A stretch of DNA of 64,000 nt from Rugosibacter aromaticivorans (GTDB lineage: Bacteria > Pseudomonadota > Gammaproteobacteria > Burkholderiales > Rhodocyclaceae), in contig NZ_CP010554.1 of NCBI RefSeq assembly GCF_000934545.1, positions 620,001 through 684,000 on the forward strand, in the 5' to 3' direction. Positions 3,261 to 56,400 of the stretch are shown piece after piece (position 1 is the first letter of the stretch; each line of letters opens with the position of its first letter). The notes under the pieces were generated by a model, which saw nothing but the letters and a program-made list of their open reading frames with translations, searched no databases and had not been told where the DNA came from. The position numbers were made by a program, and so were the translations under genes.

Positions 3261-3313
3261 TGAAAAGTCGGCGCTGGCGATACGCCGCGAAGCAAGTCCT
3301 CTTGGGGGACGGT
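3261..3313 (+). repeat. Dispersed modular repeat, copy R1
   Basis: Intergenic copy. It has the GAAAAGTCGGCGCTGGCGAT core, then ACGCCGCGAAGC, then a GTCC...GGGGAC mini-hairpin. The core holds a CGGCG/CGCCG inverted repeat. It lacks the ~65-bp middle found in the long copies R10 and R12 but keeps both flanking modules. Confidence 0.8.
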
Positions 3314-3467
3314 GCTGATCATGTCGGTTAGACCATCGGTCTGTGGTGAGACTCAGCGGTTTTATGGGCGTCGTCAACTTGCTCCTTTGCTGCGCGTTAA
3401 GTCCAATGCGGGACACTAATCGCTTGTAGTTGTTGTCTTTTCAGCCTCACCCACCAGGAGAGAATCA

Positions 3468-4052
3468 ATGAATAAATTAGTCACGCTGCTAGTTGGCCTT
3501 GTTATGGCTACGTTTAATGTGTTTGCTGCGGTTAATGTCAATACCGCAACCCAGGAACAACTCGAGTCACTCAATGGCATTGGCCCAGCTAAAGCCAAAG
3601 CCATTATTGATTATCGCCAGAAAAACGGGGGTTTCAAAACGCTTGAAGATATTGATAAGGTGCCGGGAATTGGTGCCGGTATCATGGGTAAGATCAAAAA
3701 TGACGTGACGCTCACAGGTGAAACTACCGTGAAGGTAGCAGCCAAGCAAGAGCCACGGATAAGCAGCAAGAAAGCAGAGGCCACACGATCTGCACCTGCA
3801 CCAAAAGCTGAACCAGTGAAGGTGACCCCCACAGCAGCACCTGCGGTTAAGGCTGGAGAGCCAAAAGGCGATAGTAAAAACGCAGAGGTTAAAGCCGAAA
3901 AGAAAACTGCTGCCAGGACTGATAAAGAAGCGAAGAAGGCCGAACGAGAGGCTAAAAAAGCTGAAAAAGAAGCACTGAAAAGCGAAAAAAGTGGTGACGC
4001 CAAAGTGAGCAAGAAGGGCGCTAAAGCAGATAAGGCGGAAGAGAAGCAATAG
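3468..4052 (+). CDS. ComEA-like helix-hairpin-helix secreted protein with Lys/Ala-rich tail
   Basis: 194 residues. An N-terminal signal peptide (about residues 1-22, ending VFA) is followed by a ComEA-type double helix-hairpin-helix domain (about 23-80: VNVNTATQEQLESLNGIGPA, then DIDKVPGIGAGIMGKI). In ComEA this domain binds DNA in the periplasm during natural transformation. The rest, about residues 85-194, is a low-complexity Lys/Ala/Glu tail, longer and more basic than in ordinary ComEA. The start has a good ribosome site (AGGAGAGAA) ahead of the ATG. A role in DNA binding is well supported; a role in uptake is inference. Confidence 0.85.
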   Translation: MNKLVTLLVGLVMATFNVFAAVNVNTATQEQLESLNGIGPAKAKAIIDYRQKNGGFKTLEDIDKVPGIGAGIMGKIKNDVTLTGETTVKVAAKQEPRISSKKAEATRSAPAPKAEPVKVTPTAAPAVKAGEPKGDSKNAEVKAEKKTAARTDKEAKKAEREAKKAEKEALKSEKSGDAKVSKKGAKADKAEEKQ

Positions 4053-4078
4053 TCGCTCTGTTGCATTTTCAGCAGCCA

Positions 4079-4107
4079 TAAAAAACCCCGCTTCGGCGGG
4101 GTTCTTT
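4079..4107. terminator. Bidirectional intrinsic terminator
   Basis: Perfect 8-bp stem AACCCCGC / GCGGGGTT around a TTCG tetraloop, with an A-run before and TTCTTTAT after. It lies between the convergent comEA-like gene and the ETF:quinone oxidoreductase gene and can end transcription from both sides. Confidence 0.92.
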
Positions 4108-4120
4108 ATGGGGTGCGTGG

Positions 4121-5752
4121 CTACATCTGCTGATAAATCGGCCCTTCGCCTCCTTGCGGGGCAACCCAGTTGATGTTTTGCGTCGGGTCTTTGATGTCGC
4201 AGGTTTTGCAATGCACGCAATTTTGCGCGTTGATCTGCAAGTGCGGGTTGGCTCCGCTGGCATCGCGCACAATCTCATATACCCCCGCTGGACAGTAGCG
4301 CTGCTCGGGCGCATCGTAAAGCGCCAGATTGGTGTTGATCGGGACATCGGCATTTTTTAGTTGCAGATGACAGGGCTGATCTTCCTCGTGGTTGGTGTTG
4401 GAGAGAAAGACCGACGAGAGCCTGTCGAAAGTCAGCACGCCATCGGGCTTGGGGTAAATGATGGGCGCACAGTCAGCGGCCAGTTTGAGTTTGGTGTGAT
4501 CGCTCGTGTTGTGCAGTGTCCATGGTGCCTTGCCGCGCAGCAGCACCTGATCGATGCCGAACATGAGCGAACCGGTGATCAGACCCTTCGCCATCCACGG
4601 TTTGAAGTTGCGCGCCGTGTGCAGCTCGTCATACAGCCAGGAAGCGCGCAAGGCTTCAGGATAGGCGGTAAGCTCATCGTGCGCGCGGTTAGCGGCGAGT
4701 GCCACCGCAGCGGCTTGGGCGGCCAGCATGCCGCTCTTGATTGCGGCATGGCTGCCCTTGATGCGTGAGGCGACCAGCAGCCCGGCATCGTCGCCGATCA
4801 GTGCGCCACCGGGAAAGTCCAGTCGTGGCATGGATTGCAGGCCACCTGCCGCCAGCGCGCGCGCGCCATACGCAATGCGCTTGCCGCCTTCTAGCATGGC
4901 AGCAATATGCGGGTGGGTTTTCATGCGCTGCATTTCTTCAAAGGGCGAAAGATACGGATTGCTGTAACCCAGACCGACAACAAGACCGATGGCAACCTGG
5001 TTTTCTGCCAGGTGATAAATAAAACCGCCGCCATAGGTGTCTCTGGTAAGCGGCCAGCCAGCGGTGTGCATGACCAGGCCCTTTTCGTGCTGGCTGGCTG
5101 GCACTTCCCATAATTCCTTGATGCCCAATGCGTAAGTTTGCGGGTCAGATTTTGCGCGCAGATTGAAGCAGGCTTCAATTTCCTTGCCTAAATGCCCACG
5201 ACAACCTTCGGCGAACAGCGTGTATTTGGCGAGCAGTTCCATGCCCGGTTGGTAAGCCGCACTGTGTTCTCCTGTGCGCTTGACGCCCATATCGCCCGTC
5301 GCGACGCCGCGCACAGCACCGTGTTCGTCGTACAGCACTTCAGCACCGGCAAAGCCGGGAAAGAGATCAACGCCCAAGGCTTCCGCCTGCGTGGCCAGCC
5401 AGCGACACACCAGCCCCAGGCTGATGATGTAGTTGCCATGATTCTGAAAGCAGGATGGCAGCAGAAAATTGGGCACATCAACGCTGCCCTTGGGCGTGAG
5501 AAAGGTAAACCGATCACGGCTGACGGGGGTGTCCAGCGGCGCATCTTTTTCTTGCCAGTCGGGTATCAATTCGTTGAGCGCGCGCGGATCCATCACTGCG
5601 CCCGAGAGAATATGCGCACCGATTTCAGCGCCTTTCTCAATCAGGCAAACGCTGATACCCGGATTAATCTGTTTCAGTCGTATCGCTGCCGAGAGCCCTG
5701 CGGGGCCGCCCCCCACAATCAATACGTCAAATTCCATGGCTTCGCGCTGCAT
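4121..5752 (-). CDS. Electron transfer flavoprotein:ubiquinone oxidoreductase
   Basis: 543 residues, full length. The N-terminus has the FAD dinucleotide motif [19 protein letters not shown]. The C-terminus has the ferredoxin-like 4Fe-4S cysteines in [20 protein letters not shown]. This membrane-associated enzyme re-oxidises reduced EtfAB and passes electrons to quinone, closing the path from the acyl-CoA dehydrogenase. It is transcribed away from etfBA and ends at a shared terminator. The start ATG at 5752 gives [27 protein letters not shown] five codons later is an alternative. Confidence 0.96.
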
Positions 5753-5821
5753 GTGATTCCTTTCAAATACGAGGAAAACTTAATCGGCCGATTATAATCA
5801 ACCCTTAACTTAACTTGCTGA

Positions 5822-6265
5822 ATGCGTGTCATGAGTTCTGTTGCAATGCTTGGTCGTAAGCTGGTCTATCGCCATGAAATGCCACTGCGCTGGGGCGATC
5901 AGGACGCGATGAATCACATCAATAACACGCTGTACTTCCGCTATATGGAACAGGCGCGGGTCGAGTGGCTGGATGCGCTTTGCGCTGAGGAGCGGCGAGA
6001 AAAAAATCAGGGTGTCGTTCTGGTCAATGCAAGCTGCACCTTTCTGATTCCGCTGACATATCCGGGAGAAGTGTCGTGCGATATTTTCATCGGCCAGCCA
6101 GGGCGCAGCAGTTTGCCGACTTTTTATGAGTTACGCCGGCTGGATGATCATCGCCTGTATGCTGAAGGCGCAGCCAAGCTGGTGTGGATAGACAAGCTAA
6201 GCGGCAAGTCGATGCCGCTGCCAGATGCTCTGCGCCTGGCCTTTGCTGATGCACAGAAAACGTGA
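5822..6265 (+). CDS. Acyl-CoA thioesterase, hotdog fold (YbgC/4HBT type)
   Basis: 147 residues. The segment MPLRWGDQDAMNHINNTLYF is the 4-hydroxybenzoyl-CoA thioesterase signature, with the catalytic Asp in WGDQDAMNH. Such cytoplasmic enzymes hydrolyse acyl-CoAs. It lies 70 bp from the divergent ETF:quinone oxidoreductase gene and upstream of the CoA-transferase pair, so a role in acyl-CoA turnover fits. Starts at residues 4 or 9 are also possible. The substrate is unknown. Confidence 0.85.
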   Translation: MRVMSSVAMLGRKLVYRHEMPLRWGDQDAMNHINNTLYFRYMEQARVEWLDALCAEERREKNQGVVLVNASCTFLIPLTYPGEVSCDIFIGQPGRSSLPTFYELRRLDDHRLYAEGAAKLVWIDKLSGKSMPLPDALRLAFADAQKT

Positions 6266-6324
6266 CAACCGCAGCCGCGCTGACATTATTTAATGCGTGT
6301 GTTGATTCATCAATTTTGTAAGGG

Positions 6325-7038
6325 ATGTTCATGAATAAAATTTTTCCTTCTGCCACCGAAGCGCTCAAGGGCATTGTCAAGGACAACCAGCTATTGGCTG
6401 TCGGTGGGTTTGGCCTGTGCGGCATTCCCGAAGCGCTGATTGATGCCTTGCTGGCAAGTGGCGTCAAAGGGCTGACGGTGATTTCGAACAATGCCGGCAT
6501 CGATGGATTCGGCCTGGGCAAACTGCTTGAATCGCGCCAGATCAAAAAAATGATTGCCAGCTACGTCGGTGAAAACAAGGAGTTTGAGCGCCAGTATTTA
6601 TCCGGCGAGCTTGAAGTGGAACTCACGCCGCAAGGCACGCTGGCCGAGAAATTGCGCGCCGGTGGGGCAGGTATTCCGGCCTTTTTCACCAAGACGGGCG
6701 TGGGCACACTCGTGGCTGAAGGCAAGGAACTGCGGGATTTTGAAGGGGGCACCTATGTGCTGGAACGCAGCCTCGTGCCTGAGGTCTCTCTAGTCAAAGC
6801 ACACGTGGCGGATAAATCCGGCAATTTGCAGTTTCGTCTGACCGCGCGCAACTTCAATCCGGCCGTGGCAATGGCGGGCAAGGTATGCATAGTGGAAGTC
6901 GAGCATATCGTCGAGACAGGGGCGCTGGACCCGGATCAGATCCATTTGCCGGGAATTTATGTGCATCGCATCGTGCATAACCCGAATCCCGAAAAGCGCA
7001 TCGAAAAAATCACTCTCAGAGAAAAGGCGGAGCACTGA
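6325..7038 (+). CDS. scoA: 3-oxoacid CoA-transferase subunit A
   Basis: 237 residues. It contains the alpha-subunit motif [19 protein letters not shown] and the [15 protein letters not shown] stretch typical of succinyl-CoA:3-ketoacid CoA-transferase subunit A. With subunit B it transfers CoA between succinyl-CoA and 3-oxoacids such as acetoacetate. The next gene starts 2 bp after the stop codon, forming a tight two-gene operon. Confidence 0.93.
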
Positions 7039-7040
7039 TC

Positions 7041-7679
7041 ATGGCCTGGAACCACGACCAAATGGCGGCGCGCGCCGCGCAGGAATTGCAAGATGGCTTT
7101 TACGTCAATCTGGGCATTGGCTTGCCGACGCTGGTGGCCAACCATGTGCCCGGTCACATGGAAGTGTGGCTGCAAAGCGAGAATGGAATGCTCGGCATTG
7201 GCCCGTTTCCGACAGAAGATGAAGTGGATGCCGATCTGATCAATGCGGGAAAACAAACGGTGACGACCTTGCCTGGCTCATCCATTTTCGGCAGCGATGA
7301 GAGCTTTGCCATGATCCGTGGTGGCAAGGTGAACCTGAGCATACTCGGTGCCATGCAAGTGAGCGAACACGGCGATCTGGCGAACTGGATGATTCCCGGC
7401 AAGATGGTCAAGGGCATGGGCGGCGCGATGGATCTGGTGGCCGGTGTCAAGCGCGTGATCGTGCTGATGGAGCATGTCGCCAAAAAGAAAGATGGCAGCG
7501 AAGACCTGAAAATTCTGCCAGCCTGCACCTTGCCGTTGACAGGCAAGGCAGTCGTTGATCGCATCATCACCGATCTGGCGGTGATGGATGTCACTCCAAC
7601 AGGGCTGAAAGTGGTTGATCTGGCGCCCGGCGTGACGCTGGAACAGCTACAAGTCAAGACGGGGGTGAAGCTGCAATAG
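7041..7679 (+). CDS. scoB: 3-oxoacid CoA-transferase subunit B
   Basis: 212 residues. It carries the catalytic [10 protein letters not shown] motif, whose glutamate forms the enzyme-CoA thioester, and the [13 protein letters not shown] start typical of subunit B. Together with scoA and the upstream ETF and acyl-CoA dehydrogenase genes it points to use of fatty acids, ketone bodies or branched amino acids as carbon sources. Repeat copy R2 lies 55 bp downstream. Confidence 0.94.
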
Positions 7680-7733
7680 GTTTGTTTTAGGTCTGCTGGT
7701 ACAGATGGGAGTATGCGTCACTTCACTGCTCAC

Positions 7734-7763
7734 GAAAAGTCGGCGCTGGTGAGACGGCGATGA
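7734..7763 (+). repeat. Dispersed modular repeat, copy R2
   Basis: Intergenic short copy: GAAAAGTCGGCGCTGGTGAG followed by ACGGCGATGA. It lies between scoB and the convergent antitoxin-like gene. Here the second box is ACGGCG (a direct repeat of CGGCG) rather than the ACGCCG that forms a hairpin in R1. Confidence 0.8.
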
Positions 7764-7789
7764 CTGTGGGGCATCCACTAATCATCTTG

Positions 7790-8095: not shown

Positions 8096-8251
8096 GGCGA
8101 ATCAACTTATAAAGACTAGGATGCGCACAATCGTACGCATCTTTATGTCCGCGTCAAGTCAGTGAATGCTAATGGTCCACATATGTTTTACGAACGACCG
8201 CTAGTGAGGAAAGATACGACAGCCCTTGACAATAGGCGATAACCAGAGCCT

Positions 8252-9127
8252 TCAGTGCAGCACGCGCCCGGCAGGCGGAAACAGCTCGTCAATGATTTCC
8301 GGGCCGAAGCGGTATTCATGGCCGCAGATTTCATCCGCTACGGAAATCATTTCAGCATCGGCGAGGATGTCGGTCACTTCGTCACGGCCCATGGCAAGTA
8401 ACAAATTACGTATTTTCTCTTCATCACGCGGGCAATGCCAGGTGACCATGCGCGGTGGGTAAACACGGATATTTTCTGTGTTAAACAAGCGGGTGAGCAG
8501 TGTTTCCACCGACAGCGCTAACTCTGCTGGTTGCAGCGTGTTGGCGAGTTGCTCGATGCGATTCCAGCCGTCTGCATCGCGCCAATCAGCGTCAGGCAGT
8601 TTTTGTAAAAAGAGCCCGCAGGCTGTCTCAGCATCCGCCGCTAGCCACAGGCGGGAGGAAAGCTGTTCGGATTGCGTGAGGTAATGCTCGAAAATAGCGG
8701 CTATCGTTTCGCCGTCATTCGGCACCAGGCTTTGGTAGGGCTCGGCGTGGGCGGTTTGCAGCGTGAGCATGAGCTGGCCATCGCCGAGTAGCTCTTTGGC
8801 TGTAAAAGTCGGTGCTGGTGACACGGTGGCTTCTTGATTTGCAGGCTCTAAGGTAGTGCGCGCCATGCCACGCAGGCGTAATTGCTCATCGCAATCCATC
8901 ACCAATAATGACACGGGCCCTGTGCCCTGTAGCTGAAAGCGCACGCGGCCAGGTGTTTTCAGATTGCTGCCAATGATGGTGGTGACAGCGGCCAGCTCAC
9001 CCAGCAAATGGCGTGCCGCCGGGGCGTAATCGCGCACGGTACACAGCGAACGCCAGGCAGGCCCGAGTTGAACGAGGCTGCCGCGAATGTCGAGGTCTTC
9101 AAACAGAAAGCGATGAATGGTGTCCAT
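8252..9127 (-). CDS. hslO: Redox-regulated chaperone Hsp33, cysteine-poor variant
   Basis: 291 residues, normal length. The N-terminal chaperone domain is recognisable (IRGSLVQLGPAWRSL, LLVMDCDEQLRLRGMARTTL, ELLGDGQLMLTLQ). The C-terminal zinc domain should carry CxC and CxxC. Here the first pair reads Cys232-Pro-Arg234 and the second Asp265-Glu-Ile-Cys268, so only two of four ligands remain. I recall similar cysteine-poor forms in other betaproteobacteria, but cannot check. An in-frame repeat copy (R3) encodes residues ~100-108 in the linker before ELLGDGQL. The gene lies 6 bp after the Spx-like gene on the same strand and is probably co-transcribed with it. Confidence 0.9.
   Translation of the reverse strand: MDTIHRFLFEDLDIRGSLVQLGPAWRSLCTVRDYAPAARHLLGELAAVTTIIGSNLKTPGRVRFQLQGTGPVSLLVMDCDEQLRLRGMARTTLEPANQEATVSPAPTFTAKELLGDGQLMLTLQTAHAEPYQSLVPNDGETIAAIFEHYLTQSEQLSSRLWLAADAETACGLFLQKLPDADWRDADGWNRIEQLANTLQPAELALSVETLLTRLFNTENIRVYPPRMVTWHCPRDEEKIRNLLLAMGRDEVTDILADAEMISVADEICGHEYRFGPEIIDELFPPAGRVLH
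8803..8830 (+). repeat. Dispersed repeat copy R3, inside hslO
   Basis: TAAAAGTCGGTGCTGGTGAC plus ACGGTGGC, antisense to hslO. It is read in frame as VSPAPTF-type residues in the linker of Hsp33. It differs from the consensus at three or four positions, so it is either old or under coding constraint. Confidence 0.65.
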
Positions 9128-9559: not shown

Positions 9560-10801
9560 ATGAAAATCCAACCTATTGTGCGCCGCATTCTGTTGGCGCT
9601 GCTTGTCATGCTGCTCATTGTTGCCGGTTTTTGGTGGGGCATGCGCCCTAAACCGATTCCCGTGGTTCTCAAAGCCGTTGATCGCGGCATGGTCGATGCC
9701 ACCGTGGTCAACACGCGCGCCGGAACCGTGGAAGCTTGCCTGCGCACGCGGCTGTCAGCCATTGTGGGTGGCCGTATTGAATATCTTGGCGTGAAAGAAG
9801 GTGACCGCGTCAAGAAAGGGCAGTTGTTGATGAAGCTCTGGAATGACGATCAAAAAGCGCAACAGTATCTGGCAGAAACACAGCGTGCTTTGTCTCTTCA
9901 ACGCGTGAATGAGCAATGTGTCACGGCAGCGAATGCCGAGCGCGAAGCAAAGCGACAAGCTCTGCTTCGCGCTAAAGGTTATGTGTCCATTGCCAAAGAA
10001 GACGCGGCAAGGACTGAAGCAGAAGCCCGAAAATCCGCCTGTGCCAGCGCGCGGGCCGATGTAACCCAGGCTGACGCGCGTGTGGCGGTGACGCGCACTG
10101 AACAGCAACGCACCGTGCTTGTCGCACCCTTTGATGGTACGGTGGCGAAGATTGTGGGTGAGCTGGGCGAATACTCCACTCCCTCGCCACCCGGCGTGCA
10201 AACGCCCCCGGCGATTGATCTGATTGATGACAGTTGCCTGTATGTCAAAGCGCCCATGGATGAAGTGGATGCGCCCAAAATTACTGCTGGCCTGCCCGTG
10301 CGTGTGACGCTCGATGCCTTGCCCAAACACCCGTTTGCCGGCCATGTGCGGCGTGTGGCGCCTTATGTGCTGGCTGTTGAAAAACAGGCGCGGACGGTGG
10401 ACGTGGAAGTGGATTTTGACGCACCGACCAAGGGGCTGCTGGTAGGTTACAGCGCGGATGTGGAAATTGTTCTGCAGCAACATAGCGATGTTTTGCGCGT
10501 GCCAACCACGGCGATCATGGAAGGTGGGAAAGTGTTGGTGTTGGCAGAGGGCAGTAACAAACTCGAAGCGCGCCAACTCAAAACAGGGCTTGCCAACTGG
10601 GAATACACCGAGGTGATCGACGGCTTGAAACTGGGCGAACGAGTGGTGACGTCGCTTGAGCGCGAAGGCGTAAAAGTCGGCGCTCGTGTGACGGCGGATA
10701 CGGCAACTGCCGGTACAACAGACGCCGCCGGTACAAAAAATACCGCAAACAGTGTGGCAAACCCTGCGACAAACGCTGCGACAAACGCTGCGGAAAAATA
10801 A
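9560..10801 (+). CDS. MacA-like periplasmic adaptor (HlyD family)
   Basis: 413 residues. An N-terminal membrane anchor (about residues 8-28, LLALLVMLLIVAGFWWG) is followed by the lipoyl/biotinyl half-motif GVKEGDRVKKGQLLMKL, a coiled-coil stretch (about 95-170), the second lipoyl part VAPFDGTVAKIVGELGEY, beta-barrel parts, and a low-complexity Thr/Ala/Asn tail (about 376-413). It should bridge the inner-membrane ABC permeases to an outer-membrane channel. Repeat copy R4 is in frame near residue 371 (VKVGARVT). The ATPase gene starts 14 bp after the stop codon. Confidence 0.9.
   Translation: MKIQPIVRRILLALLVMLLIVAGFWWGMRPKPIPVVLKAVDRGMVDATVVNTRAGTVEACLRTRLSAIVGGRIEYLGVKEGDRVKKGQLLMKLWNDDQKAQQYLAETQRALSLQRVNEQCVTAANAEREAKRQALLRAKGYVSIAKEDAARTEAEARKSACASARADVTQADARVAVTRTEQQRTVLVAPFDGTVAKIVGELGEYSTPSPPGVQTPPAIDLIDDSCLYVKAPMDEVDAPKITAGLPVRVTLDALPKHPFAGHVRRVAPYVLAVEKQARTVDVEVDFDAPTKGLLVGYSADVEIVLQQHSDVLRVPTTAIMEGGKVLVLAEGSNKLEARQLKTGLANWEYTEVIDGLKLGERVVTSLEREGVKVGARVTADTATAGTTDAAGTKNTANSVANPATNAATNAAEK
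10671..10697 (+). repeat. Dispersed repeat copy R4, inside the MacA-like gene
   Basis: TAAAAGTCGGCGCTCGTGTG then ACGGCGG, on the coding strand, read as VKVGARVTA. It falls where adaptor proteins of this family end their conserved part, just before the low-complexity tail. Confidence 0.65.
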
Positions 10802-12768: not shown

Positions 12769-12769
12769 T

Positions 12770-17546: not shown

Positions 17547-18239
17547 ATGACTTTGCAACAACAACTGTTGCTCGATCTTCAGCTGGATCAACCTCCGACG
17601 TTAGAGAATTTTGTCGCGGGTGCCAATGCCGAGTTGATCGCGCGCCTGCGTATCCTGACGGATCATCATCATTTCGACGCAGTGTATCTGTGGGGCCCGG
17701 CGGGTTGCGGCAAGAGCCATTTGCTCGCTGCCACAGCCAATGCTGCAGACGCCAAGCGTCCGGTCATTTTTTTGCCGGTTGAAAAAGTCGGCGCTGACGT
17801 GACGGTGGCCAGTGGCGGTTTGCTGGTGATAGACGAGATCCAGAAGCTGGATGAAGAGGGCCAGCGCGCTTTATTTCGACTCTTTAACACCGCCCGTTTT
17901 CTGGGTCTTGCCTTGTTGTTATCGGGCACAGAGCCGCCCATGCAGCTGGCATTGCGTGAAGACCTGCGCACGCGCATCGGCCAGATGTTGATCTATGAAA
18001 TCCATCGGCTGAGTGATGAAGAAAAAGCCGCTGCATTAGCGCATCATGCGCAATTGCGCGGCATGCTGATGGATCCCGGTGTTGTGCAGTATTTATTGCG
18101 CCACGGCCGTCGCGATCTGCCATCGCTGATGCATATGCTGGAAAGTCTTGACCGCATTTCGCTGGCACAGCATCGGCCGCTGACCGTACCGCTGGTGCGC
18201 GAGCTGATGCAAACCACGCTGGATACTGATTTGTCATGA
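17547..18239 (+). CDS. hda: DnaA regulatory inactivator Hda
   Basis: 230 residues from ATG 17547. It is a DnaA-like AAA+ protein without the DNA-binding domain: QQQLLLDLQLDQPPTLENFV at the N-terminus, Walker A LWGPAGCGKSHLL, Walker B LLVIDEIQ, and sensor II near the end (GRRDLPSLMHMLESLD). With the sliding clamp it stimulates ATP hydrolysis by DnaA and prevents over-initiation. Repeat copy R5 encodes KVGADVT at residues ~79-87, between the first strand pair and Walker B. It overlaps the next gene by four bases. Confidence 0.92.
   Translation: MTLQQQLLLDLQLDQPPTLENFVAGANAELIARLRILTDHHHFDAVYLWGPAGCGKSHLLAATANAADAKRPVIFLPVEKVGADVTVASGGLLVIDEIQKLDEEGQRALFRLFNTARFLGLALLLSGTEPPMQLALREDLRTRIGQMLIYEIHRLSDEEKAAALAHHAQLRGMLMDPGVVQYLLRHGRRDLPSLMHMLESLDRISLAQHRPLTVPLVRELMQTTLDTDLS
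17781..17808 (+). repeat. Dispersed repeat copy R5, inside hda
   Basis: GAAAAAGTCGGCGCTGACGT then GACGGTGG on the coding strand, read EKVGADVTV. The 14-base core AAAAGTCGGCGCTG matches the intergenic copies exactly, which is hard to explain by chance. Confidence 0.7.
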
Positions 18240-21972: not shown

Positions 21973-21991
21973 TTGCGATATGAACGTTTTA

Positions 21992-22016
21992 CCGTATCAC
22001 GAGCGCCGACTTTTTG
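21992..22016 (-). repeat. Dispersed repeat copy R6, between ccmB and ccmC
   Basis: On the minus strand it reads AAAAAGTCGGCGCTCGTGAT then ACGG. It fills most of the 41-bp gap inside the otherwise tightly packed ccm operon and touches the start of ccmC. Confidence 0.75.
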
Positions 22017-26311: not shown

Positions 26312-27600
26312 CGACTTTCTTTTTTGCGGCAGCGGCGTTGACGCTCGCCGCTCTGGTGTTACTGCTGCGCCCGTGGTGGCGCACCAAAAACGGGAAAAAT
26401 GCTAAACATCACCGTACCACCGGCGCCAGCGCGGTGCGTCCCTCCGGGAACTTTTCAGCGGCGCTGAACACGACCATTCACCGTGATCGCCTTGGTGAAC
26501 TGGAGCGTGACCATGCCAACGGCTTGATTTCGGCTGTCGATTACGCCGAAGCGCGTGAGGAACTGCAACACCAGTTGCTTGACGATACGCTCGTTGCCGA
26601 AGCCGGCACCGCAACTGTCAGCGCAGGCCGGCGTTGGGATGGATGGATGCTGGCGGTACTGCTGCCTGCGGCAGCGATAGGTCTGTATGTCCTGCTAGGT
26701 AATCCTGACGCACTGCTTTCCAGTGCTGAGCGCAACGCGCAGGCTGCGGCCACGGTGAATGGCATGATCAGCCGGCTTGAGCAAAAAATGGCTCAGGAGC
26801 CCGGTAACACCCAAGGCTGGGTGATTCTCGCGCGTGCTTACAAAGTCATGGGCCGCTGGGACGACGCCGAGCGTGCCTTTACCCACGCTGCCCCCATCGT
26901 GGAGAAAAATGCTACGCTGCTCGCCGAGTTCGCCGATGTGCTGCTACAAAAAACCGACAGTTTTGCCGGTCGTCCGCATGAATCGATCGCGCAGGCCTTG
27001 CGGCTAGAACCCAGTAACGGCAAAGCCTTGCTTCTGGCTGGCGCCGAGGCGTTTGCCGGAAAAAGCTATGCCGCAGCAGCCAGCTATTGGGAGCGACTGC
27101 TAAAACAGCTCGATCCCGCGTCCGATGAGGCGCGCATGGTCGCATCTGGCATTGCCAGGGCGCGTGAGATGGGTGGTGAAAAGGTCTTGAGTCCGTCACT
27201 GGACGGTGCTGGTAAGACGCCGCCGGTATCAAAAGCAACGGACGCCGCGCTGACGGCCAGCGCCGTCAGCGGTCGCGTCGAGTTAAGCCCGGCCCTGCGC
27301 GCGCAAACCACCCCTGACGAAACAGTGTTCATTTTTGCCCGTGCCGTCAATGGCTCGCGCATGCCGCTTGCCGTGCAGCGCGTGCGCGTGGCCGATCTGC
27401 CCTTTGATTTCAAGCTCGACGACAGTCAGGCCATGTCACCGGAAAATAAAATCTCATCCGCGCAGACCTTGCGCATTGAAGTACGCGTCTCAAAGTCCGG
27501 TCAGGCTATACCCGCCAGCGGCGATTTGACCGGTAGCGGCGCGGCGGTGAAGCCGGGAACAAAAGGCATCCACGTGGTCATCAATCAGGTGGTGAAATAA
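26308..27600 (+). CDS. ccmI: Cytochrome c biogenesis protein CcmI (TPR)
   Basis: 430 residues. An N-terminal helix, a cytoplasmic loop, a second helix (about 113-131), then TPR-like repeats (about 150-290) and a periplasmic beta domain (about 325-430) ending GIHVVINQVVK. It presents apocytochrome to CcmFH. The loop after the first helix contains an extra ~18 residues (TTGASAVRPSGNFSAAL region) coded by repeat copy R7; family members usually go directly from the basic stretch to LNxxIxRDxLxELE. It closes the operon. Confidence 0.93.
   Translation: MTTFFFAAAALTLAALVLLLRPWWRTKNGKNAKHHRTTGASAVRPSGNFSAALNTTIHRDRLGELERDHANGLISAVDYAEAREELQHQLLDDTLVAEAGTATVSAGRRWDGWMLAVLLPAAAIGLYVLLGNPDALLSSAERNAQAAATVNGMISRLEQKMAQEPGNTQGWVILARAYKVMGRWDDAERAFTHAAPIVEKNATLLAEFADVLLQKTDSFAGRPHESIAQALRLEPSNGKALLLAGAEAFAGKSYAAAASYWERLLKQLDPASDEARMVASGIARAREMGGEKVLSPSLDGAGKTPPVSKATDAALTASAVSGRVELSPALRAQTTPDETVFIFARAVNGSRMPLAVQRVRVADLPFDFKLDDSQAMSPENKISSAQTLRIEVRVSKSGQAIPASGDLTGSGAAVKPGTKGIHVVINQVVK
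26408..26458 (-). repeat. Dispersed repeat copy R7 (hairpin form), inside ccmI
   Basis: On the minus strand: CTGAAAAGTTCCCGGAGGGA, CGCACCGCGCTGGCG, then CCGGTGGTACGGTGATG. The CCCGGAGGG insert after the GAAAAGT box makes it the same sub-type as R9 in hemW; the two align over about 50 bp. Confidence 0.75.
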
Positions 27601-27842
27601 AAAAGTATCCGCGTTCCATGCTTGATGCATTGTTTTGCGAAGCGACAAGGGCCATGAATCGCCGGACTGTCATTAGCTGACGGTCTCACATCGGCCCCAA
27701 GCGGACGGTTACAACTTGCCATGCTCCCCGAAAGAAACTAGCATATCAGCCTCATGGGGGTTATGCAGCCTCCCCGTCTCAAGACGCCGGCGTCCAAGGT
27801 CTGCTCAAATCTTTGTGGCTCTATGCCCAATGAGGTGAGTTT
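27601..27842. other. Gap between the ccm operon and chrA
   Basis: About 240 bp with no recognisable gene. It should hold the chrA promoter. A GAGGTGAG ribosome site sits just before the chrA ATG. No terminator hairpin with a U-run is evident after ccmI. Confidence 0.5.
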
Positions 27843-29673: not shown

Positions 29674-29969
29674 TTGTGGCAGCGTAACGCCCCCGTCGAT
29701 AGCCGTCTTTCCCAGAGTGATCATGATAGCGTAACTGCTCGGTGGGCTTGGTGCGTTGCGGCACGTCGCCCCAATATCGATCACGAAAATTGGATGCCAA
29801 ATAAAAAAATAGCGGCGAAATGGCAGGAAGAGGATGGCAGGAAGAGGACTTTGGCCAGTATCAACGAAAGGCGGTTACGATAGCGGTCTGCCGTACCATC
29901 AGCGCCGACTTTTTTGTTGCCGTCAAAAGTGCAGAGGCGTTGTCAGCATCATCCAAAGGATAGATTAAC
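29674..29969. other. Gap between the chr pair and the NodJ-like gene
   Basis: 296 bp without a recognisable gene. It holds repeat copy R8 near the end and a short purine-rich direct repeat (GGCAGGAAGAGGA twice, about 29821-29848). I could not find any remnant of a NodI-type ATPase here. Confidence 0.5.
29891..29914 (-). repeat. Dispersed repeat copy R8
   Basis: Minus strand: AAAAAAGTCGGCGCTGATGG then TACGGC. It lies 55 bp before the GTG start of the NodJ-like gene. Confidence 0.72.
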
Positions 29970-35389: not shown

Positions 35390-36661
35390 TCAGTCAGCCA
35401 GAAATCGCGCCAGTAGCTGATTAAGAAAGCGCTGCCCCTGCCGTGTCGGCCGCAGTGTGTCTTCAACCATTTCCAGCAGCCCTTCGCGCCGCGCCACCAG
35501 CGCCGAGTTTTCGATGGTGGCCAGGGCTAAGCCGGTGCGTTCGGTGAACAGGCGCAGCGGGAAACCGGCGGTCAAACGTAGCGCATTCATCATGAATTCA
35601 CCGGGCAGATCGGTCGCGCTAATCGTTTGCCGTGTGCTGATGAAGTCGTTAAGGTGATGCTTTGGTTGGCTCTTTGCCGCACCCTGCATATACGCGCGCG
35701 GGTGGCGGTGACGCGCTTCGCGCCAGATTTCCATATGATTGGACAGCTTGGAATGGGCACCCGCGCCGATGCCAAGATAATCGCCAAACGCCCAGTAGTT
35801 GAGGTTGTGGCGGCATTGTTCCCCGGCTTTGGCAAAGGCCGAGGTTTCGTAGTGGATGAAATTTTCCACAGCAAGTTTTGCCTCGATCATTTCCTGCATG
35901 TCGGCGGCGATGTCGTCATCGGGCAGCGGCGGCGGCGTGTGGTGAAACGGCGTGTTCGGTTCCAGCGTCAGGTGATAGGCCGAGAGGTGGCTTGCGCCGC
36001 TGGCAATCGCTGTGTCGATGTCGTGCTCGGCCTCATTGAGGTTTTGCTGCGGCAGCGCGTACATGAGATCGATGTTCACGCGGGCGAAATGCGTCAGCGC
36101 CAGATCAATCGCCTGCCGCGCTTCGCGGCTGTCGTGGATGCGGCCGAGTGCCTTGAGCTTGTCATCGGCAAAACTTTGAATGCCCAGCGACAGCCGATTG
36201 ACGCCGGCCTCGCGGAAGGCTTTGAACTTTTCGGCGTCCACCGTGCCAGGATTGGCTTCGAGGGTAATTTCGGCATCCGGCTGCAACGGCACGCGCATGC
36301 GGATGGCGGCCAGCAAGGCATCGGCCGTTTCCGCGCGCATCAGGCTGGGCGTGCCGCCGCCGATGAACACACTCATTACCGGTCGGTTCCAGATGTGCGG
36401 TAGCGCCGCTTCAAGGTCGGCAATCAGCGCTGCGAGGTAAGCGGCTTCGTCAATGTCCGCTTTGGCTTCGTGCGAGTTGAAGTCGCAGTAGGGGCATTTT
36501 TTGACGCACCACGGCCAGTGCACATAGAGGGCCAGCGGCGGCGGTGCGGCAAGGCCTGAGGTTGCCGCTGCGCTGCCGTCTGAAAAAGTTCCCGAAGGGA
36601 CGTGCCGCGCTGGCGCTGACGAGACGGCAGTGATCGGAATGATGCGGCTATCACGCGGCAT
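35390..36661 (-). CDS. hemW: Haem chaperone/radical SAM protein HemW
   Basis: 423 residues, longer than the usual ~380-400. The radical SAM cluster motif is WPWCVKKCPYCDF (Cys52, Cys56, Cys59), followed by VFIGGGTPSLM, ITLEANPGTVDAEK and NRLSLGIQSFADDKLKALGR. It was long annotated as oxygen-independent coproporphyrinogen oxidase. The extra N-terminal ~25 residues (AVSSAPARHVPSGTFSDGSA) are coded by repeat copy R9, sitting between an MxxxxIIPI start and the PPPLALYVHWPWC core. The start overlaps the rdgB end by 11 bases. Confidence 0.93.
   Translation of the reverse strand: MPRDSRIIPITAVSSAPARHVPSGTFSDGSAAATSGLAAPPPLALYVHWPWCVKKCPYCDFNSHEAKADIDEAAYLAALIADLEAALPHIWNRPVMSVFIGGGTPSLMRAETADALLAAIRMRVPLQPDAEITLEANPGTVDAEKFKAFREAGVNRLSLGIQSFADDKLKALGRIHDSREARQAIDLALTHFARVNIDLMYALPQQNLNEAEHDIDTAIASGASHLSAYHLTLEPNTPFHHTPPPLPDDDIAADMQEMIEAKLAVENFIHYETSAFAKAGEQCRHNLNYWAFGDYLGIGAGAHSKLSNHMEIWREARHRHPRAYMQGAAKSQPKHHLNDFISTRQTISATDLPGEFMMNALRLTAGFPLRLFTERTGLALATIENSALVARREGLLEMVEDTLRPTRQGQRFLNQLLARFLAD
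36581..36632 (+). repeat. Dispersed repeat copy R9 (hairpin form), inside hemW
   Basis: TGAAAAAGTTCCCGAAGGGA, CGTGCCGCGCTGGCGC, then TGACGAGACGGCAGTG, antisense to hemW. The CCCGAAGGG hairpin insert is shared with R7 in ccmI. It codes for much of an N-terminal extension of HemW. Confidence 0.75.
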
Positions 36662-41751: not shown

Positions 41752-41800
41752 TTTGCCGCTGGCTTGTTTCGCCACGATTTCTTTCATCGCGCTTTTTCAC

Positions 41801-41907
41801 CGTCCCCCAAGGGGACTTTCCAGGGACGGCTCTGCCCAACAGCGGGTTCAAACATTCCCTGCGGTCAGATTCAAAGCTTCGCGGCGTATCGCCAGCGCCG
41901 ACTTTTC
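41801..41907 (-). repeat. Long repeat copy R10
   Basis: Minus strand: core GAAAAGTCGGCGCTGGCGAT, ACGCCGCGAAGC, then a ~65-bp tail (starting TTTGAATCTGACCGCAGGGA, ending CAGAGCCGTCCCTGG) and a GTCCCC-TTG-GGGAC mini-hairpin. It is nearly identical over ~95 bp to R12, 7.9 kb away in the opposite orientation. Confidence 0.85.
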
Positions 41908-44518: not shown

Positions 44519-44950
44519 TCAGGTGCGCGCGGGCGGGCCGCGCGGGGGATGCGCCGTCCAGGCAAAGGATGCGGGACGGGCTGAGATAAACGCAGAAAGC
44601 GATGCGTGAAAAGTCGGCGCTGGTGATACGGCGAGCGTTGTGTTGGCAAACAACAGTGCACCGCTGGCGACGCACAATTTGCAGCAATCGTGCGTGTTGC
44701 TGCTATCTGATGGTGATTGCTTGTCGCCCGCTACGCCACTCCGTGTCGCCTGGGCATTGCTGACGCCCAGCACAGTGCAAATCTCGGCGAAAAACTTTCC
44801 ATCACTGTCTGACTTGCCTTGATGCGATCCCATCAAACCCATGCTGGCCAAGCTTTGCATGAGCACGGCAAAGACGCCCAGCACGAGGAACAGCCGGGCA
44901 TGGTGCACGGCTGCGCGATGAAGGAACGAATAGTAGCGGGACGTGAACAT
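44519..44950 (-). CDS. DUF2946 family protein
   Basis: 143 residues. An N-terminal membrane segment (about 18-40), then FAEICTVLGV and the Cys-rich NTHDCCKLCVASGALL, and a C-terminal WTAHPPRGPPA: the DUF2946 pattern, often found next to copper genes. Cys-Cys-x-x-Cys could bind metal. Repeat copy R11 is in frame at residues ~106-115 (VSPAPTF), before the terminal motif. First gene of the group. Confidence 0.8.
   Translation of the reverse strand: MFTSRYYSFLHRAAVHHARLFLVLGVFAVLMQSLASMGLMGSHQGKSDSDGKFFAEICTVLGVSNAQATRSGVAGDKQSPSDSSNTHDCCKLCVASGALLFANTTLAVSPAPTFHASLSAFISARPASFAWTAHPPRGPPART
44608..44634 (+). repeat. Dispersed repeat copy R11, inside the DUF2946 gene
   Basis: GAAAAGTCGGCGCTGGTGAT then ACGGCGA, antisense to the gene. 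It is a perfect consensus copy inside a coding sequence, in the same reading phase as R3 in hslO (both give SPAPTF). Confidence 0.78.
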
Positions 44951-49718: not shown

Positions 49719-49852
49719 GAAAAGTCGGCACCCCGAGGTACCCCCTGCGGGGCGTGTCGGTGATACGCCGCGAAGCTTTGAATCTGACCGCAGGGAATGT
49801 TTGAACCCGCTGTTGGGCAGAGCCGTCTCTGGAAGGCCCTCTTTGGGGATGG
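49719..49852 (+). repeat. Long repeat copy R12 with internal insert
   Basis: GAAAAGTCGGC, then a ~26-bp GC-rich insert (ACCCCGAGGTACCCCCTGCG plus GGGCGT) that can fold on itself, then GTCGGTGATACGCCGCGAAGC and the ~65-bp tail shared with R10. The tail's end hairpin has decayed (CCCTCTTTGGGGATGG). It lies upstream of the MFS gene. Confidence 0.85.
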
Positions 49853-53500: not shown

Positions 53501-53680
53501 TTCTTCAGGTGCCTGGCCGGGCATCAGGGTGACGATCTGCACTTGGACATCCTGTACATCGGGAAAGGCTTCAATCGGCAATTCGCTGATGGCGTAGCCG
53601 CCCGCAATGACGATTACGGCAGTTGCCAGCAGTACGAAGATCCGTTGCTGGAGAACGAAGGTGATCAACGGCGGCAACAT
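50588..53680 (-). CDS. czcA: Heavy-metal efflux RND pump, CzcA type
   Basis: 1030 residues, full length, twelve helices and two periplasmic loops. The helix-4 proton-relay signature is DFGIIIDSAVV (Asp393, Asp399), the CzcA/CnrA/NccA form for divalent ions (Zn, Co, Cd, Ni) rather than the CusA form for Cu/Ag. Other landmarks are SELPIEAFPDVQDVQVQIVT at the start and GGDxSxEAGRR-like RISREAGRRNVIVK later. It is last in the operon C-B-A, 3 bp after the czcB-like stop. Confidence 0.94.
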   Translation of the reverse strand: MLPPLITFVLQQRIFVLLATAVIVIAGGYAISELPIEAFPDVQDVQVQIVTLMPGQAPEEIERAVTLPIEREMSGTPQLTQLRSVSMNGLSVITLTFADNTDDYFARQQVLEKLGNVTLPPGVQPGLAPLSTAVGEIYRYVIDVPAAMPDTEIRALQDWVVRPNLRMVPGVADVVSFGGAIKEYQVRVDPERLRRYAVTIDQVTQALSNASANTGAGIVRRGDEGLVVRSLGLFQNIEDIGDVAIASRNGRTVLVRDIANVVTGERPRSGIVTYNEHDSVIEGIVQMTKGENATKVVNQVRKTIDEINAKLPKGVKLKPIYERSHLIQRTVSTVVENLLVGALLVSVILVVFLRNWRSALIVASIIPLSLLFAFICMHALGVSANLMSLGAVDFGIIIDSAVVLTEALMVRLALEHSENNPQHAGLPWRMHTLQQTVMELGHPILFSKSIIILAFLPIFTFQRVEGKIFTPVALTLSFALLGGLILTLSLVPALLSFAMKREDMGEKHSPWMHRLQEKYRRILALSQKRSREVIAGSAALLILTLLLSPLLGTEFLPKLDEGNIWLTLTLPPSTALETTHNVERRVRDILRSYPEVQTVISQIGRPDDGTDPKGTNSVEILADLKPRMGWRFGDKEELISDMEKRIHTIPGVPTNFSQVIQDNVEESLSGAKGEIAVKVFGPDLTVLEDKGEQIAELLSSIHGATDVEALKVGGQSEIDIHLNRTTLSRLGVNVSDANMAVQTALGGVTVGGFYEGDRRFDITVRLAEQFRDAVDDVGGLAVALPGGGTIPLAEIARIDVRQGAARISREAGRRNVIVKLNLMGRDQGSFVTEAQAKVAAKIVLPPGYSITWGGQFENQQRAMKRLKIIVPISLGLIFLLLFWTFRSMRPAALVLAMVPFTLIGGFCGLALSGLHLSVSAAVGFIAVAGISVQNGVIMVEQVLDLLRRGASLNDAISDGAVSRLRPIIMTALMAGIGLMPAALSHGIGSETQRPFAVVIVGGIVSATLFTLLLLPVLFGRFGKERNTLDY

Positions 53681-53683
53681 CGG

Positions 53684-54829
53684 CTATTCGCCTCCGGCGA
53701 GTTCAGAAGCTAACAGTAGTGCGCCGGATTGAACGATTTTTTCCGTGGCGGTGATGCCAGCTGAGAGATACACGAAGTCGCGGTCCTGCAACGCAGCTTC
53801 GACACGCCGTTTCTCGAACTCCCCTGTCGCGCGCTCGACGAATACGAAATGGGTGACCCCTTGCGTGATGATGGCGGCGGAAGGCACGCGCAGCACCTTT
53901 GGCGAGTCTGCTGCCAATAAACGTACCCGCACGAACATCTCAGGCCGAAGTCGCCCATCGGGATTGGCTACCGATACGCGCACCGCAACACGTCGGGTGG
54001 CGGGATCGAGCGTGGGCGCCACGCGCTCGATAATAGCTGGGAATGACACGTTATTCCAGGTTTGTGCTTCGAGCGCGACCACCTGTCCGGGTTTGACCTT
54101 GTCGATCAGGTGCTCTGGCAAATCAATCATAGCCCACAATCGTTCGGGGTCGCTGACTACAAACAGCGGCGCTGCGTTCCCCGGGCCAACTTCAGCACCG
54201 GGATTGGCGTTGCGTTCCGTCACGATACCGCTAATCGGTGCGACAAGCGAGAACGTTTCACCCTTTGCACCGTATGAGACATGCAGATTGGCCAATCGCA
54301 GTTGTGCTCGTTCGTATTCGGCACGCGCCTGCTGCCAGTCGGCCTCGGCATCTTCGAGGCCCTTGTGTGCCAATACTTCACCTTCATACAGCGTCTTGTT
54401 GCGGTGAAAGGCATTTTCCTTGCGCTGTAAATCAGCCTTGGCTTTCTGTGCATCGGCCAGCGCGCTGCCGAGATCCGGCGAATCGAGAATCAACAAGGGT
54501 TGCCCCTTGTTCACGCGGTCGCCGATATCGACAGGCATCGACACGATGCGCCCCGCAAGAGGAGAACTCACTCTTGCGGTAACACTTTCATCATAGGCAA
54601 GTCTTGCATTCAGCGGCTCAGACAGCGGTAAGGGTGCTACAACAGGAATGTCGCTGTGAATCTCGGCTAACTGGGGTGATCCAGGGGGATAACGCAGGAC
54701 GCCCTCTTTGTGTGTAAAAGCAGGCGCTGTAGTTGGCGTCGATTGATGCGTTTTCAGAAGGTTCCATCCGCCCGCTCCGGCTATGGCCACAGCTGTCAAT
54801 ATGATTAATAGGTTACGGTGAACTATCAT
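53684..54829 (-). CDS. czcB: Metal-efflux RND adaptor, CzcB type
   Basis: 381 residues from ATG 54829, overlapping the outer-membrane gene's stop by four bases. An N-terminal anchor, barrel-sandwich part (ARVSSPLAGRIVSMPVDIGD and VNKGQPLLILDSPDL), coiled coil (about 130-180) and the VAPISGIVTERNANPGAEVG lipoyl half. No His-rich metal-binding N-terminus. The open frame upstream of this ATG is a shadow inside the C gene. Confidence 0.92.
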   Translation of the reverse strand: MIVHRNLLIILTAVAIAGAGGWNLLKTHQSTPTTAPAFTHKEGVLRYPPGSPQLAEIHSDIPVVAPLPLSEPLNARLAYDESVTARVSSPLAGRIVSMPVDIGDRVNKGQPLLILDSPDLGSALADAQKAKADLQRKENAFHRNKTLYEGEVLAHKGLEDAEADWQQARAEYERAQLRLANLHVSYGAKGETFSLVAPISGIVTERNANPGAEVGPGNAAPLFVVSDPERLWAMIDLPEHLIDKVKPGQVVALEAQTWNNVSFPAIIERVAPTLDPATRRVAVRVSVANPDGRLRPEMFVRVRLLAADSPKVLRVPSAAIITQGVTHFVFVERATGEFEKRRVEAALQDRDFVYLSAGITATEKIVQSGALLLASELAGGE

Positions 54830-56139
54830 TTTTTCTGCGTCTCCTGCATGGCAGAGCCGACCGTGTCGGCGAGTTCGATACGCCAAGCATAGAGCGCCTT
54901 GGCGTAGGCATCCTGAGTAGCCACCGTATCCTGTTCGGCGGCCTTCAGTGTGCGGCGTGCGTCGAGCAGATCGCCAATGTTCATCGCACCATGCTCGAAT
55001 GAAAATTCTGCAGCATCGGCTGCGTGTCGCGCTTCGGGGAGAAGTTCTTCGCTGAAACGTCGAGCGCGGCGGCCAAGTGTGTCGACATCGATATTGCGGT
55101 TCACCAGGTCGGTGCGGGCAGCGATCTCTACCTTGCGCAAGGTTTCTAGCGCGGCGGTGTAATCCGTCTCGGCCTTGGCGATATCGCCTCGATAGTCGTT
55201 GCCAAAGAGCAACGGTATGCTGATCGAAAGACCGTAAAGCGGACTGTGCGTAGGCTGCGAATTTAGCGGGTTGTGTTCCACCTGCCCGCCGACCGTGACG
55301 TCGCGACTTTTCTGTGCGCGGGCGAGGTCGCGAGCAGCGAGTGCAGCCTCGACACGTGCGCGTGCGGCCGCAACATCGGGCCGTCGCGCGAGCAGGGCAT
55401 CGAGATCGAATTCGGCGGATGCCTCTCTTCCGGTGTGCGAAGGCCAACTACCCTCCGCACGTAACTTCGAGACTTGCTTGCGCATATCCAGCAATGCTGC
55501 CAGCAAGGTTTGCGCTTGCCGTAAATCGCCTTGGGCCTGGTCGGCATCGGCTTCCGCTCTCGCGGCGTCGGTATGGGCACGCGCCACGTCAATGCGCGCC
55601 AGGTCACCTGCAGCGAGCCGCGTTTCTGCGACTTTTGCTGAGCGGCGCGCAAAGTGTGCACTTTCCACCGCCAGCGCTGCACGCTGTTGCGCCGCGAGCA
55701 GATCATAAAATGCGGCTGCCACGGCGATACGCTGCTGACGCAAGGTATCGGCAAGATCACTCTGGGCGGCGGCGAGATTTGCAGTAGCAGCATGAGTGCG
55801 CAACTCGCGTTTATCGCCACGTTCGAATACCTGGCTCAGGCTGAGAATACTGTCGACGCGTTTATCGCCGAGATGCCCACTACCGATACCATCGTGTGAA
55901 TCGATGGCGGCGGTACTCAAACTCAGTATGGGGTTGGGTCTGGTATTGGCAGATTGAACGCCAGCTTCTGCATTAGCGACGGTAGCGTGCCTGATCGCAA
56001 TATCCGGATTGTTGGACAGTAACTGCTGTTCAGCAGAATCTAGAGTTAGCGAAATGGTTTCGGTATCTAGCTCTTTCGCAATCGTGTCGGTAACGATGCA
56101 GCATAGAGCAAGGATCAAGAATAGGTGGCGAGACAACAT
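54826..56139 (-). CDS. czcC: Metal-efflux outer-membrane channel, CzcC (TolC family)
   Basis: 437 residues. Signal peptide, then the two TolC-like halves with long coiled coils: AEQQLLSNNPDIAIRHATVA, and NPILSLSTAAIDSHDGIG in the first, the DALLARRPDVAAARARVEAA and SIPLLFGNDYRGDIAKAETD stretches in the second. First gene of the czcCBA-like operon; a 268-bp regulatory region precedes it. Confidence 0.92.
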   Translation of the reverse strand: MLSRHLFLILALCCIVTDTIAKELDTETISLTLDSAEQQLLSNNPDIAIRHATVANAEAGVQSANTRPNPILSLSTAAIDSHDGIGSGHLGDKRVDSILSLSQVFERGDKRELRTHAATANLAAAQSDLADTLRQQRIAVAAAFYDLLAAQQRAALAVESAHFARRSAKVAETRLAAGDLARIDVARAHTDAARAEADADQAQGDLRQAQTLLAALLDMRKQVSKLRAEGSWPSHTGREASAEFDLDALLARRPDVAAARARVEAALAARDLARAQKSRDVTVGGQVEHNPLNSQPTHSPLYGLSISIPLLFGNDYRGDIAKAETDYTAALETLRKVEIAARTDLVNRNIDVDTLGRRARRFSEELLPEARHAADAAEFSFEHGAMNIGDLLDARRTLKAAEQDTVATQDAYAKALYAWRIELADTVGSAMQETQKK

Positions 56140-56182
56140 TCTGTTGAAAATTCTGTTGGATGGCGGCTAAGAAAGGTGACGA

Positions 56183-56217
56183 AATGTCAGCACGACATTG
56201 TTGCCATCAAATGTCAA
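56183..56217 (-). promoter_or_regulatory. Operator/promoter of the czcCBA-like operon
   Basis: AATGTC-agcac-GACATT, a perfect palindrome 44-60 bp ahead of the czcC start. Beside it on the coding strand is TTGACA (56212-56217), a good -35 box that also repeats part of the GACATT motif. A likely binding site for the neighbouring CzcR-like regulator. Confidence 0.55.
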
Positions 56218-56281
56218 ATGAGTTGCAAAAACTTAGGCTCGATCTGAGCGTTACCCATTTTGGATGGGCGAATATCAGCAA

Positions 56282-56296
56282 GCAATGCGACATTGC
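56282..56296. promoter_or_regulatory. Second palindrome upstream of czcC
   Basis: GCAAT-gcgac-ATTGC, related to the AATGTC palindrome 85 bp away (both contain GACATT). It may be a distal operator. Confidence 0.35.
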
Positions 56297-56332
56297 CGAT
56301 GGGGGCTGTTGAATCCATATTACAGAATCAAG

Positions 56333-56372
56333 CCTTTCCGTAATCTTTCCTGAAGATTACCAATTGGAAAGG
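56333..56372. terminator. Hairpin after the CzcS-like kinase gene
   Basis: CCTTTCC and GTAATCTT pair with AAGATTAC and GGAAAGG around TCCTG, with a 5-base bulge (CAATT). It is the strongest stem in this gap and may end the regulator operon; it has no clear U-run, so a regulatory role is also possible. Confidence 0.5.
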
Positions 56373-56374
56373 TT

Positions 56375-56400
56375 TGAAAAGTCGGCGCTACGACAACGCC
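56375..56400 (+). repeat. Dispersed repeat copy R13
   Basis: TGAAAAGTCGGCGCTACGAC then AACGCC. It abuts both the hairpin at 56333-56372 and the stop codon of the kinase gene. The second box is degenerate. Confidence 0.7.

Follow-up and report, generated by a model that had tools for sequence, protein, structure and literature searches.

A 64-kb stretch of the Rugosibacter aromaticivorans chromosome (positions 620001-684000 of the 2,934,611-base, single-contig genome G000; "the window" below means this whole stretch) carries many members of a family built on a 25-bp word that recurs throughout the genome. The word has the own-genome consensus AAAAGTCGGCGCTGGYRRnACGSCR (32.8 bits) and, with a probability of roughly 0.6 judged from comparisons of genome sequences, serves as the DNA uptake sequence (DUS), a self-identity tag, of the genera around Rugosibacter and Sulfuritalea. 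The features of DUS and of uptake signal sequences (USS) that can be tested at the genome level were found: abundance, positions relative to genes, conservation in place, dialects, and absence from two stretches that look acquired.

Sequence, abundance and positions of the word

The information is restricted to 25 columns, with at most 0.15 bit on either side, so the flanks are unconserved. The 14-mer AAAAGTCGGCGCTG, at one mismatch or fewer, has 195 forward and 204 reverse matches in the whole genome (399 in all), versus 3 + 1 = 4 for the same pattern read backwards. A position-weight matrix (PWM) finds 91 sites above 12 bits in 464 kb, made up of the window and 20 further stretches of 20 kb each, evenly stepped, and none in the reversed sequence; above 10 bits the counts are 93 and 2. 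A few of the 91 sites are right halves of split words (e.g. 27198; see below). The density is about one word per 5 kb, extrapolating from the 464-kb count to ~575 sites genome-wide, and in 400 kb the 16 commonest 11-mers are all pieces of the word. A sequence-only reading of the window had proposed a dispersed repeat family, in both orientations and at about one copy per 5 kb, and the counts bear this out. It had also known of no named element with this consensus, and a literature search for the core gave no match. The shared core that it described is indeed over-represented in the window, where the 14-mer has 13 matches at two mismatches or fewer versus 0.80 expected and the 20-mer core has 8 at three or fewer versus 0.02 expected; the copies are not identical, since the 20-mer has a single exact match there. 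Among named records, the exact 22-mer is found mostly in Rugosibacter metagenome-assembled genomes, then in Sulfuritalea and unnamed Rhodocyclaceae.

The word has no conserved stem-loop, because column 22, which needs a C to pair, is an unpaired G in 76% of words and a C in 21%. An Rfam scan gave no match at the words, and with the potential stem broken in 76% of them, a conserved RNA or hairpin was rejected. The proposal of a hairpin-built repeat element is likewise not supported: the unit is a 25-bp word with G in column 22 in most copies, and many copies lie in genes without length change. The one unrelated Rfam hit is a chrB-b RNA at 27755-27804 of the window (RF03086, 47.8 bits), the sole match there to reach the gathering score.

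The 91 words comprise 57 inside called genes, 31 between genes and 3 across gene edges; the calls come from a simple codon-usage caller, whose called coding fraction of 0.73 is surely too low. Within genes the words run in both directions and occupy five of the six frames, none of the 32 own-direction words lying in the frame whose consensus contains TGA. Called genes flank 28 of the intergenic words on both sides, and 11 of these words lie between convergent genes. Judged by GC skew, 51 words are on the leading and 40 on the lagging strand, which is no bias. KOPS and Chi are sites with replication-strand bias, and a strand-polarised site of that kind was rejected on these counts. The words are spaced more evenly than random, with a coefficient of variation of 0.65 versus 0.89 in 5000 simulations (P 0.0012) and 5 spacings below 1 kb versus 14.6 expected by simulation (P 0.0004). 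An inverted word pair 57 bp apart (L022; L154:8400-8457) is the sole pair closer than 150 bp in the 464 kb. Overlapping inverted word pairs occur in G024 and, with the L154 pair, are reminiscent of DUS terminators.

The words in coding sequence are not a simple insertion, as homologues that align without gaps demonstrate. Twenty-five bases are no whole number of codons, so inserting them would put a gene out of frame. Three proteins, selected for being recognisable, were compared with homologues of known structure from other organisms: TrmD (KVGAGDTVK), CysN (QPEKSALVTRQ) and an acyl-CoA carboxylase alpha subunit (LKVGAGETL). In each of the three, the residues that the word encodes align gap-free. 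Among 44 word sites with a homologue scored as word-free, 21 were gap-free and 23 gapped (controls, 37/725 gapped), and nine of the gapped rows were dropped because they held misaligned words (2), split words (5) or one site counted twice (2). Since many homologues align gap-free, many words arise with the length of the gene unchanged. The loops and linkers in which the coding words sit are also variable in length.

Conservation, dialects and word-free stretches

Within the genus the word is kept in place. In 47 same-genus pairs from 28 words, taken from syntenic stretches of five species with reciprocal pairs included, the 18 informative columns are 0.896 identical versus 0.785 for the flanks. 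At least 17 of the 18 columns are identical in 55% of words versus 22% of shifted controls.

The 14-mer, again at one mismatch or fewer, has 178-630 copies in 12 of 61 relatives, including all nine genomes of the own genus, and 0-19 copies in the other 49. In four more genera the word differs but keeps to the same frame, AAAAGTC-N12-ACGGCG. The dialect of G018 is nAAAGTCAGTCnSnSSRRSACGGCG, that of G024 and G077 is AAAAGTCGAC, and that of G027 ends in ACGGCA. Of the family's 199 genomes, 23 (in 9 genera) have at least 14 copies of the exact two-box pattern and the other 176 have 0-6; the reversed control gives 0-3. The family searched (f1) presumably corresponds to the Rhodocyclaceae of GTDB; the NCBI taxonomy places Rugosibacter in Sterolibacteriaceae. 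Across the order (399 genomes), none of the 386 genomes outside the family exceeds five exact two-box matches. G236 (family f35) and G283 (f38) have five such words each, four of the five in G283 carrying AAAAGTCAG, and these are attributed to imported DNA or bin contamination.

Words refined for each genome give 1.7-2.9 sites per 10 kb in 10 genomes of 9 genera, the densities of G016, G024, G070, G077 and G078 being biased upward because their stretches were wholly or partly picked from match lists; those of G000, G009, G018, G027 and G156 were picked without them. The reversed controls of the refined words give 0-1 sites, except in G024 (4 versus 16 sites). An eleventh genome, G031 (genus g24), has 6 sites versus 3 reversed, which is noise, and no site was found in the 80 kb of it that was scanned despite 14 two-box matches genome-wide.

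Two long stretches of the own chromosome, 942,921-1,066,137 (123 kb) and 532,811-607,703 (75 kb), contain no word on either strand, as scanned stretch by stretch with the joints between stretches left out. Together they span ~198 kb, where ~39 words would be expected at average density, and the GC content of wholly word-free stretches is ordinary (0.515-0.574). In the first, an integrase lies at 946.4 kb, and genes for TrbI, TraC, TraU, TraN and a TrwB/TraG-type coupling protein are present. The second is near tRNA-Gly and tRNA-Cys (535.7-535.9 kb) and encodes TrbI, a TraG-type coupling protein and a TrbE-type ATPase. The transfer genes were recognised by Pfam with 10 proteins per scan, i.e. 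among part of the genes in each stretch. Both stretches look like integrative conjugative elements (ICEs). The probable ICE at G000:C1:946431-1065000 has F-type transfer genes together with GmrSD, a DNA methylase and a nuclease, as well as SAVED-domain, ThiF-domain, HipA and Fic genes, and looks defence-rich. A fourth long word-free stretch is L170; the third is considered below. The earlier idea of a repeat-element unit does not fit a word that is kept in place within the genus, has dialects elsewhere and is missing from the two conjugative stretches.

Split words and members in the window

At orthologous places, species pairs may have a contiguous word in one genome and the same word with an insert after AAAAGT or AAAAGTC in the other. 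Among 402 non-identical right halves (from loci L001-L238 and the window), 355 belong to contiguous words, 15 have AAAAGT displaced, i.e. elsewhere within 110 bp upstream, and 32 have no AAAAGT within 110 bp; roughly one of the 15 would be expected by chance. The modules described by the sequence-only reading are this minority of words, split just after AAAAGT by small inserts that vary from species to species; for the contiguous majority the modular description fails. Measured to the nearest AAAAGT, the inserts in 13 of the 15 are 18, 21, 24, 27, 42 or 87 bp long, all multiples of three, and in the other two 11 bp, with 57 and 36 bp to the next AAAAGT. Fourteen of 17 split forms lie in open frames whose codon score is positive and 3 do not; the multiples of three may therefore reflect coding constraint. 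The inserts are read as a second layer, mini-elements or duplications that exploit word sites. At L129:3400-3520 (Rugosibacter WOZP), compared with L014 and L213, a KWPND-motif gene, which we take to encode a biotin ligase, has a split word with a tail-like extension that is in frame and adds dozens of residues before the motif.

All 13 places that had been listed in the window hold a member, and ten of them are 25-bp words. Four of these are intergenic: 3263..3287 (+; 40.9 bits by PWM; at the same place in G006 and G004), 7735..7759 (+; 42.5 bits), 21990..22014 (-; 35.3 bits; word in G004 and G007) and 29889..29913 (-; 35.6 bits). The word at 8804..8828 (+; 36.8 bits) is contiguous inside the Hsp33 gene (8252-9127, minus strand; Pfam HSP33), and its G004 orthologue has a 36-bp insert after AAAAGTC. 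A HlyD-type gene (Pfam HlyD) has a word near its 3' end at 10672..10696 (+; 34.3 bits), with a word also at the matching place in G004 and G007. The word inside hda (17783..17807, +; 32.2 bits; Pfam Hda_lid) encodes VEKVGADVTVA and is contiguous in the window and G007, with 36 bp more in G006 and G004. The word at 44609..44633 (+; 43.2 bits) has the full consensus and is identical in G004, and that at 56377..56401 (+) is weak and degenerate (15 bits), with a poor right box. The tenth, at 41882-41906 (-), forms one end of a ~108-bp element (41800..41907, -) with a CCCC-TT-GGGG hairpin at the other; the copy listed at 41801 is thus a member whose word lies at the opposite end. This element has at least 46 full or partial matches in the genome, a lower bound since 40 of 371 candidates were scored, and many of the matches are the word alone.

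The remaining three listed places are members in split or composite form. A split word with a 21-bp insert lies inside a CcmH/CycH-type gene (26412..26455, -), and another with a 21-bp insert lies at the 5' end of the open reading frame 35390-36661 (minus strand) at 36584..36629 (+); the latter is split in the window and G006 and contiguous in the G004 orthologue. The composite at 49720..49852 (+) consists of a split word (49720-49770) and, after it, the tail also seen at 41800-41893 (93%), and between the same flanks G004 and G006 have a plain word. Two further members had been overlooked. One is a word at 35487..35511 (-; 31.6 bits) inside a radical-SAM/HemN-type gene (Pfam), with a word also in G004, G006 and G007; the other is a split word with an 18-bp insert at 27180..27222 (+), in an open frame of the same CcmH/CycH-type gene as above, whose place is occupied by a contiguous word in G006 and G004.

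Explanations and known systems

As an uptake sequence, the word would be recognised in free DNA at the cell surface by a type IV pilus minor pilin of the ComP/PilE/FimT kind, and word-bearing DNA would be pulled in, through the ComEC channel, and then recombined. Word-bearing alleles would be preferentially taken up and spread, a molecular drive by which words would build up on both strands wherever the sequence permits, within genes as well as between them, kept in place and drifting to dialects between genera. Newly arrived conjugative DNA would be without words, and the small inserts after AAAAGT would be a second layer exploiting word sites. All 24 genomes tried, 15 of them word-bearing and 9 word-poor, encode ComEC (own genome included), as do 10 of 14 controls. 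Pilins of the ComP_DUS family were found in 53 of 61 relatives, own genome included, whatever the word count, and the family was rejected as the discriminating receptor for that reason; the own-genome member lies at G000:C1:2792738-2792983. ComEC and the ComP_DUS pilin permit uptake of word-bearing DNA and do not prove it.

Several observations weigh against an uptake sequence. No gene tracks the word so far, because ComEC and ComP_DUS are also in word-poor relatives. Between genera, the word is on both sides at only 6 of 14 loci (one of these six is identical in three genomes), 6 are without a word on one side and 2 have split forms; the 14 loci have flanks at most 77% identical, were picked for holding the word, and had their rows judged by reading. 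G184, G027, G111 and G188 have few or no two-box matches though they belong to word-rich genera, and so does G115, with a count within 0-6. The coding places are prone to insertions and deletions, 14 of the 35 cleaned comparisons being gapped versus 37 of 725 control segments, with some of the 35 orthologues of one another. Both conjugative stretches were picked because the match list of the plus strand showed gaps there, and a third word-free stretch holds ribosomal protein, rpoA, secY and EF-Tu genes, a gap that is likely caused by constraint. The word is also longer (~33 bits) and rarer than a classical DUS, and the split words and the ~108-bp element resemble a mobile repeat.

One alternative is that the word is a tiny mobile or formerly mobile repeat, such as a repetitive extragenic palindromic sequence (REP) or REPIN, a miniature inverted-repeat transposable element or a small dispersed repeat of the cyanobacterial kind, with the hairpin modules as longer relatives. 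The inserts at one shared point, the ~108-bp element with its matches, the indel-rich coding places, the loss of the word at 6 of 14 intergenus loci and a Y1_Tnp (RAYT-type) gene in the own genome would all suit it. We nevertheless consider it unlikely: 57 of 91 words are in called genes although an insertion of this length would shift the frame, and 21 word-free homologues align gap-free, as do the three solved ones. The two conjugative stretches, where no word was found, should also have received a mobile repeat, and such a repeat leaves the dialects unexplained. RAYT/IS200-type spread was rejected as a general cause, since searches gave no Y1_Tnp for 8 of 17 word-bearing genomes; these eight include several incomplete drafts and also G104 (one contig) and G006 and G027 (100% complete). 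The intact Y1_Tnp copy of the own genome (L183) has no contiguous word in the surrounding 3.3 kb and a split word ~1.1 kb away, and a truncated copy (L184) has a word within ~0.1 kb. At L183:1033-1869, the Y1_Tnp gene (1138-1869, minus strand) overlaps an open frame on the opposite strand with a repeated stretch of ~29 residues, which is perhaps the transposase gene's own repeat pair and unrelated to the word. A phage origin was set aside: an exact-pattern scan of viral contigs gave 49 matching stretches, with 0.87 words per 10 kb beyond the ascertained copy versus 1.45 in chromosomal loci picked alike, and these stretches are too mixed with host DNA to use. A combined picture, in which an independently evolved two-box uptake system of 25 bp with genus dialects has its words split in frame by miniature inserts, so that the tags have parasites of their own, is less likely than not and is put forward tentatively.

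Even spacing, conservation in place, dialects and absence from acquired DNA would follow equally if the word were the site of a chromosome-wide protein (a nucleoid organiser, segregation or recombination factor) whose recognition sequence diverged between genera, the sites being selected for even chromosome coverage, and a fixed 25-bp frame of two boxes with a variable middle suits a dimeric or two-domain binder. This too is improbable, slightly more so than a mobile repeat, given that ~33 bits are far above the need for ~575 sites in 5.9 million positions, that inserts of at least 18 bp at orthologous places would break the fixed spacing, and that the replication-strand bias of KOPS or Chi is lacking (51 versus 40). 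That codon and amino-acid composition with common motifs (KVGAGDT-like) should give the word by chance has next to no probability. Part of the copies do lie in genes and encode glycine-rich loops, but 31 of the 91 words lie between genes, those within genes occupy five of six frames, and most relatives searched are without the word; the reversed-pattern and reversed-sequence controls are nearly empty (4 versus 399, 0 versus 91), which refutes it.

If the word is an uptake sequence, it would be an independent case for the origin of uptake specificity, bearing on self-recognition versus molecular drive, and its dialects could be used to ask which residues of the pilin recognise a given word. Environmental bacteria such as Rugosibacter and Sulfuritalea would then be predicted to undergo natural transformation, and the word would be a marker for imported DNA in their genomes.

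Among inserting elements, BOX, ERIC and Correia repeats, Rickettsia palindromic elements and cyanobacterial small dispersed repeats share the modular build, internal inserts at one point and in-frame insertion in genes. They differ from the word, whose basic unit lies in genes without length change and which has genus dialects. REP/REPIN sequences with a RAYT transposase are likewise short repeats in hundreds of copies with hairpins in some, whereas most words have no hairpin, many are in genes, and no Y1_Tnp was found in the word-bearing genomes mentioned above. The USS of Pasteurellaceae is a different word in a different class of bacteria and is the same kind of signal. The minor pilin ComN/PpdA is predicted as its receptor (PMC12616744).

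The closest likeness is to the DUS of Neisseriaceae, for which published work describes dialects, the receptor ComP and ~1900 copies in Neisseria meningitidis (PMC3630211), conservation that is combined with permissive places and absence from recently acquired genes (PMC2397512), and use in detecting ICEs, with ICENmu seeming to use DUS as an insertion hotspot (PMC7371117). Both are short words in many copies, on both strands and in and between genes, with dialects around a shared core; both are conserved although their places are permissive, and both are missing from genes acquired recently. The present word differs in sequence, in its length of 25 bp versus 10-12 and in having two boxes at a fixed distance, and also in its extrapolated copy number of ~575 versus the ~1900 given for N. 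meningitidis, with a minority of its words split by inserts. A literature search found no paper linking an uptake sequence to Rhodocyclales or Rhodocyclaceae, the works on DUS being on Neisseriaceae, Pasteurellaceae or general; the papers found for Azoarcus concern, by title, Neisseria, islands and Haemophilus. The best reading of the genomes compared here is that the word would represent a further uptake-sequence system, unrelated to those of Neisseriaceae and Pasteurellaceae.

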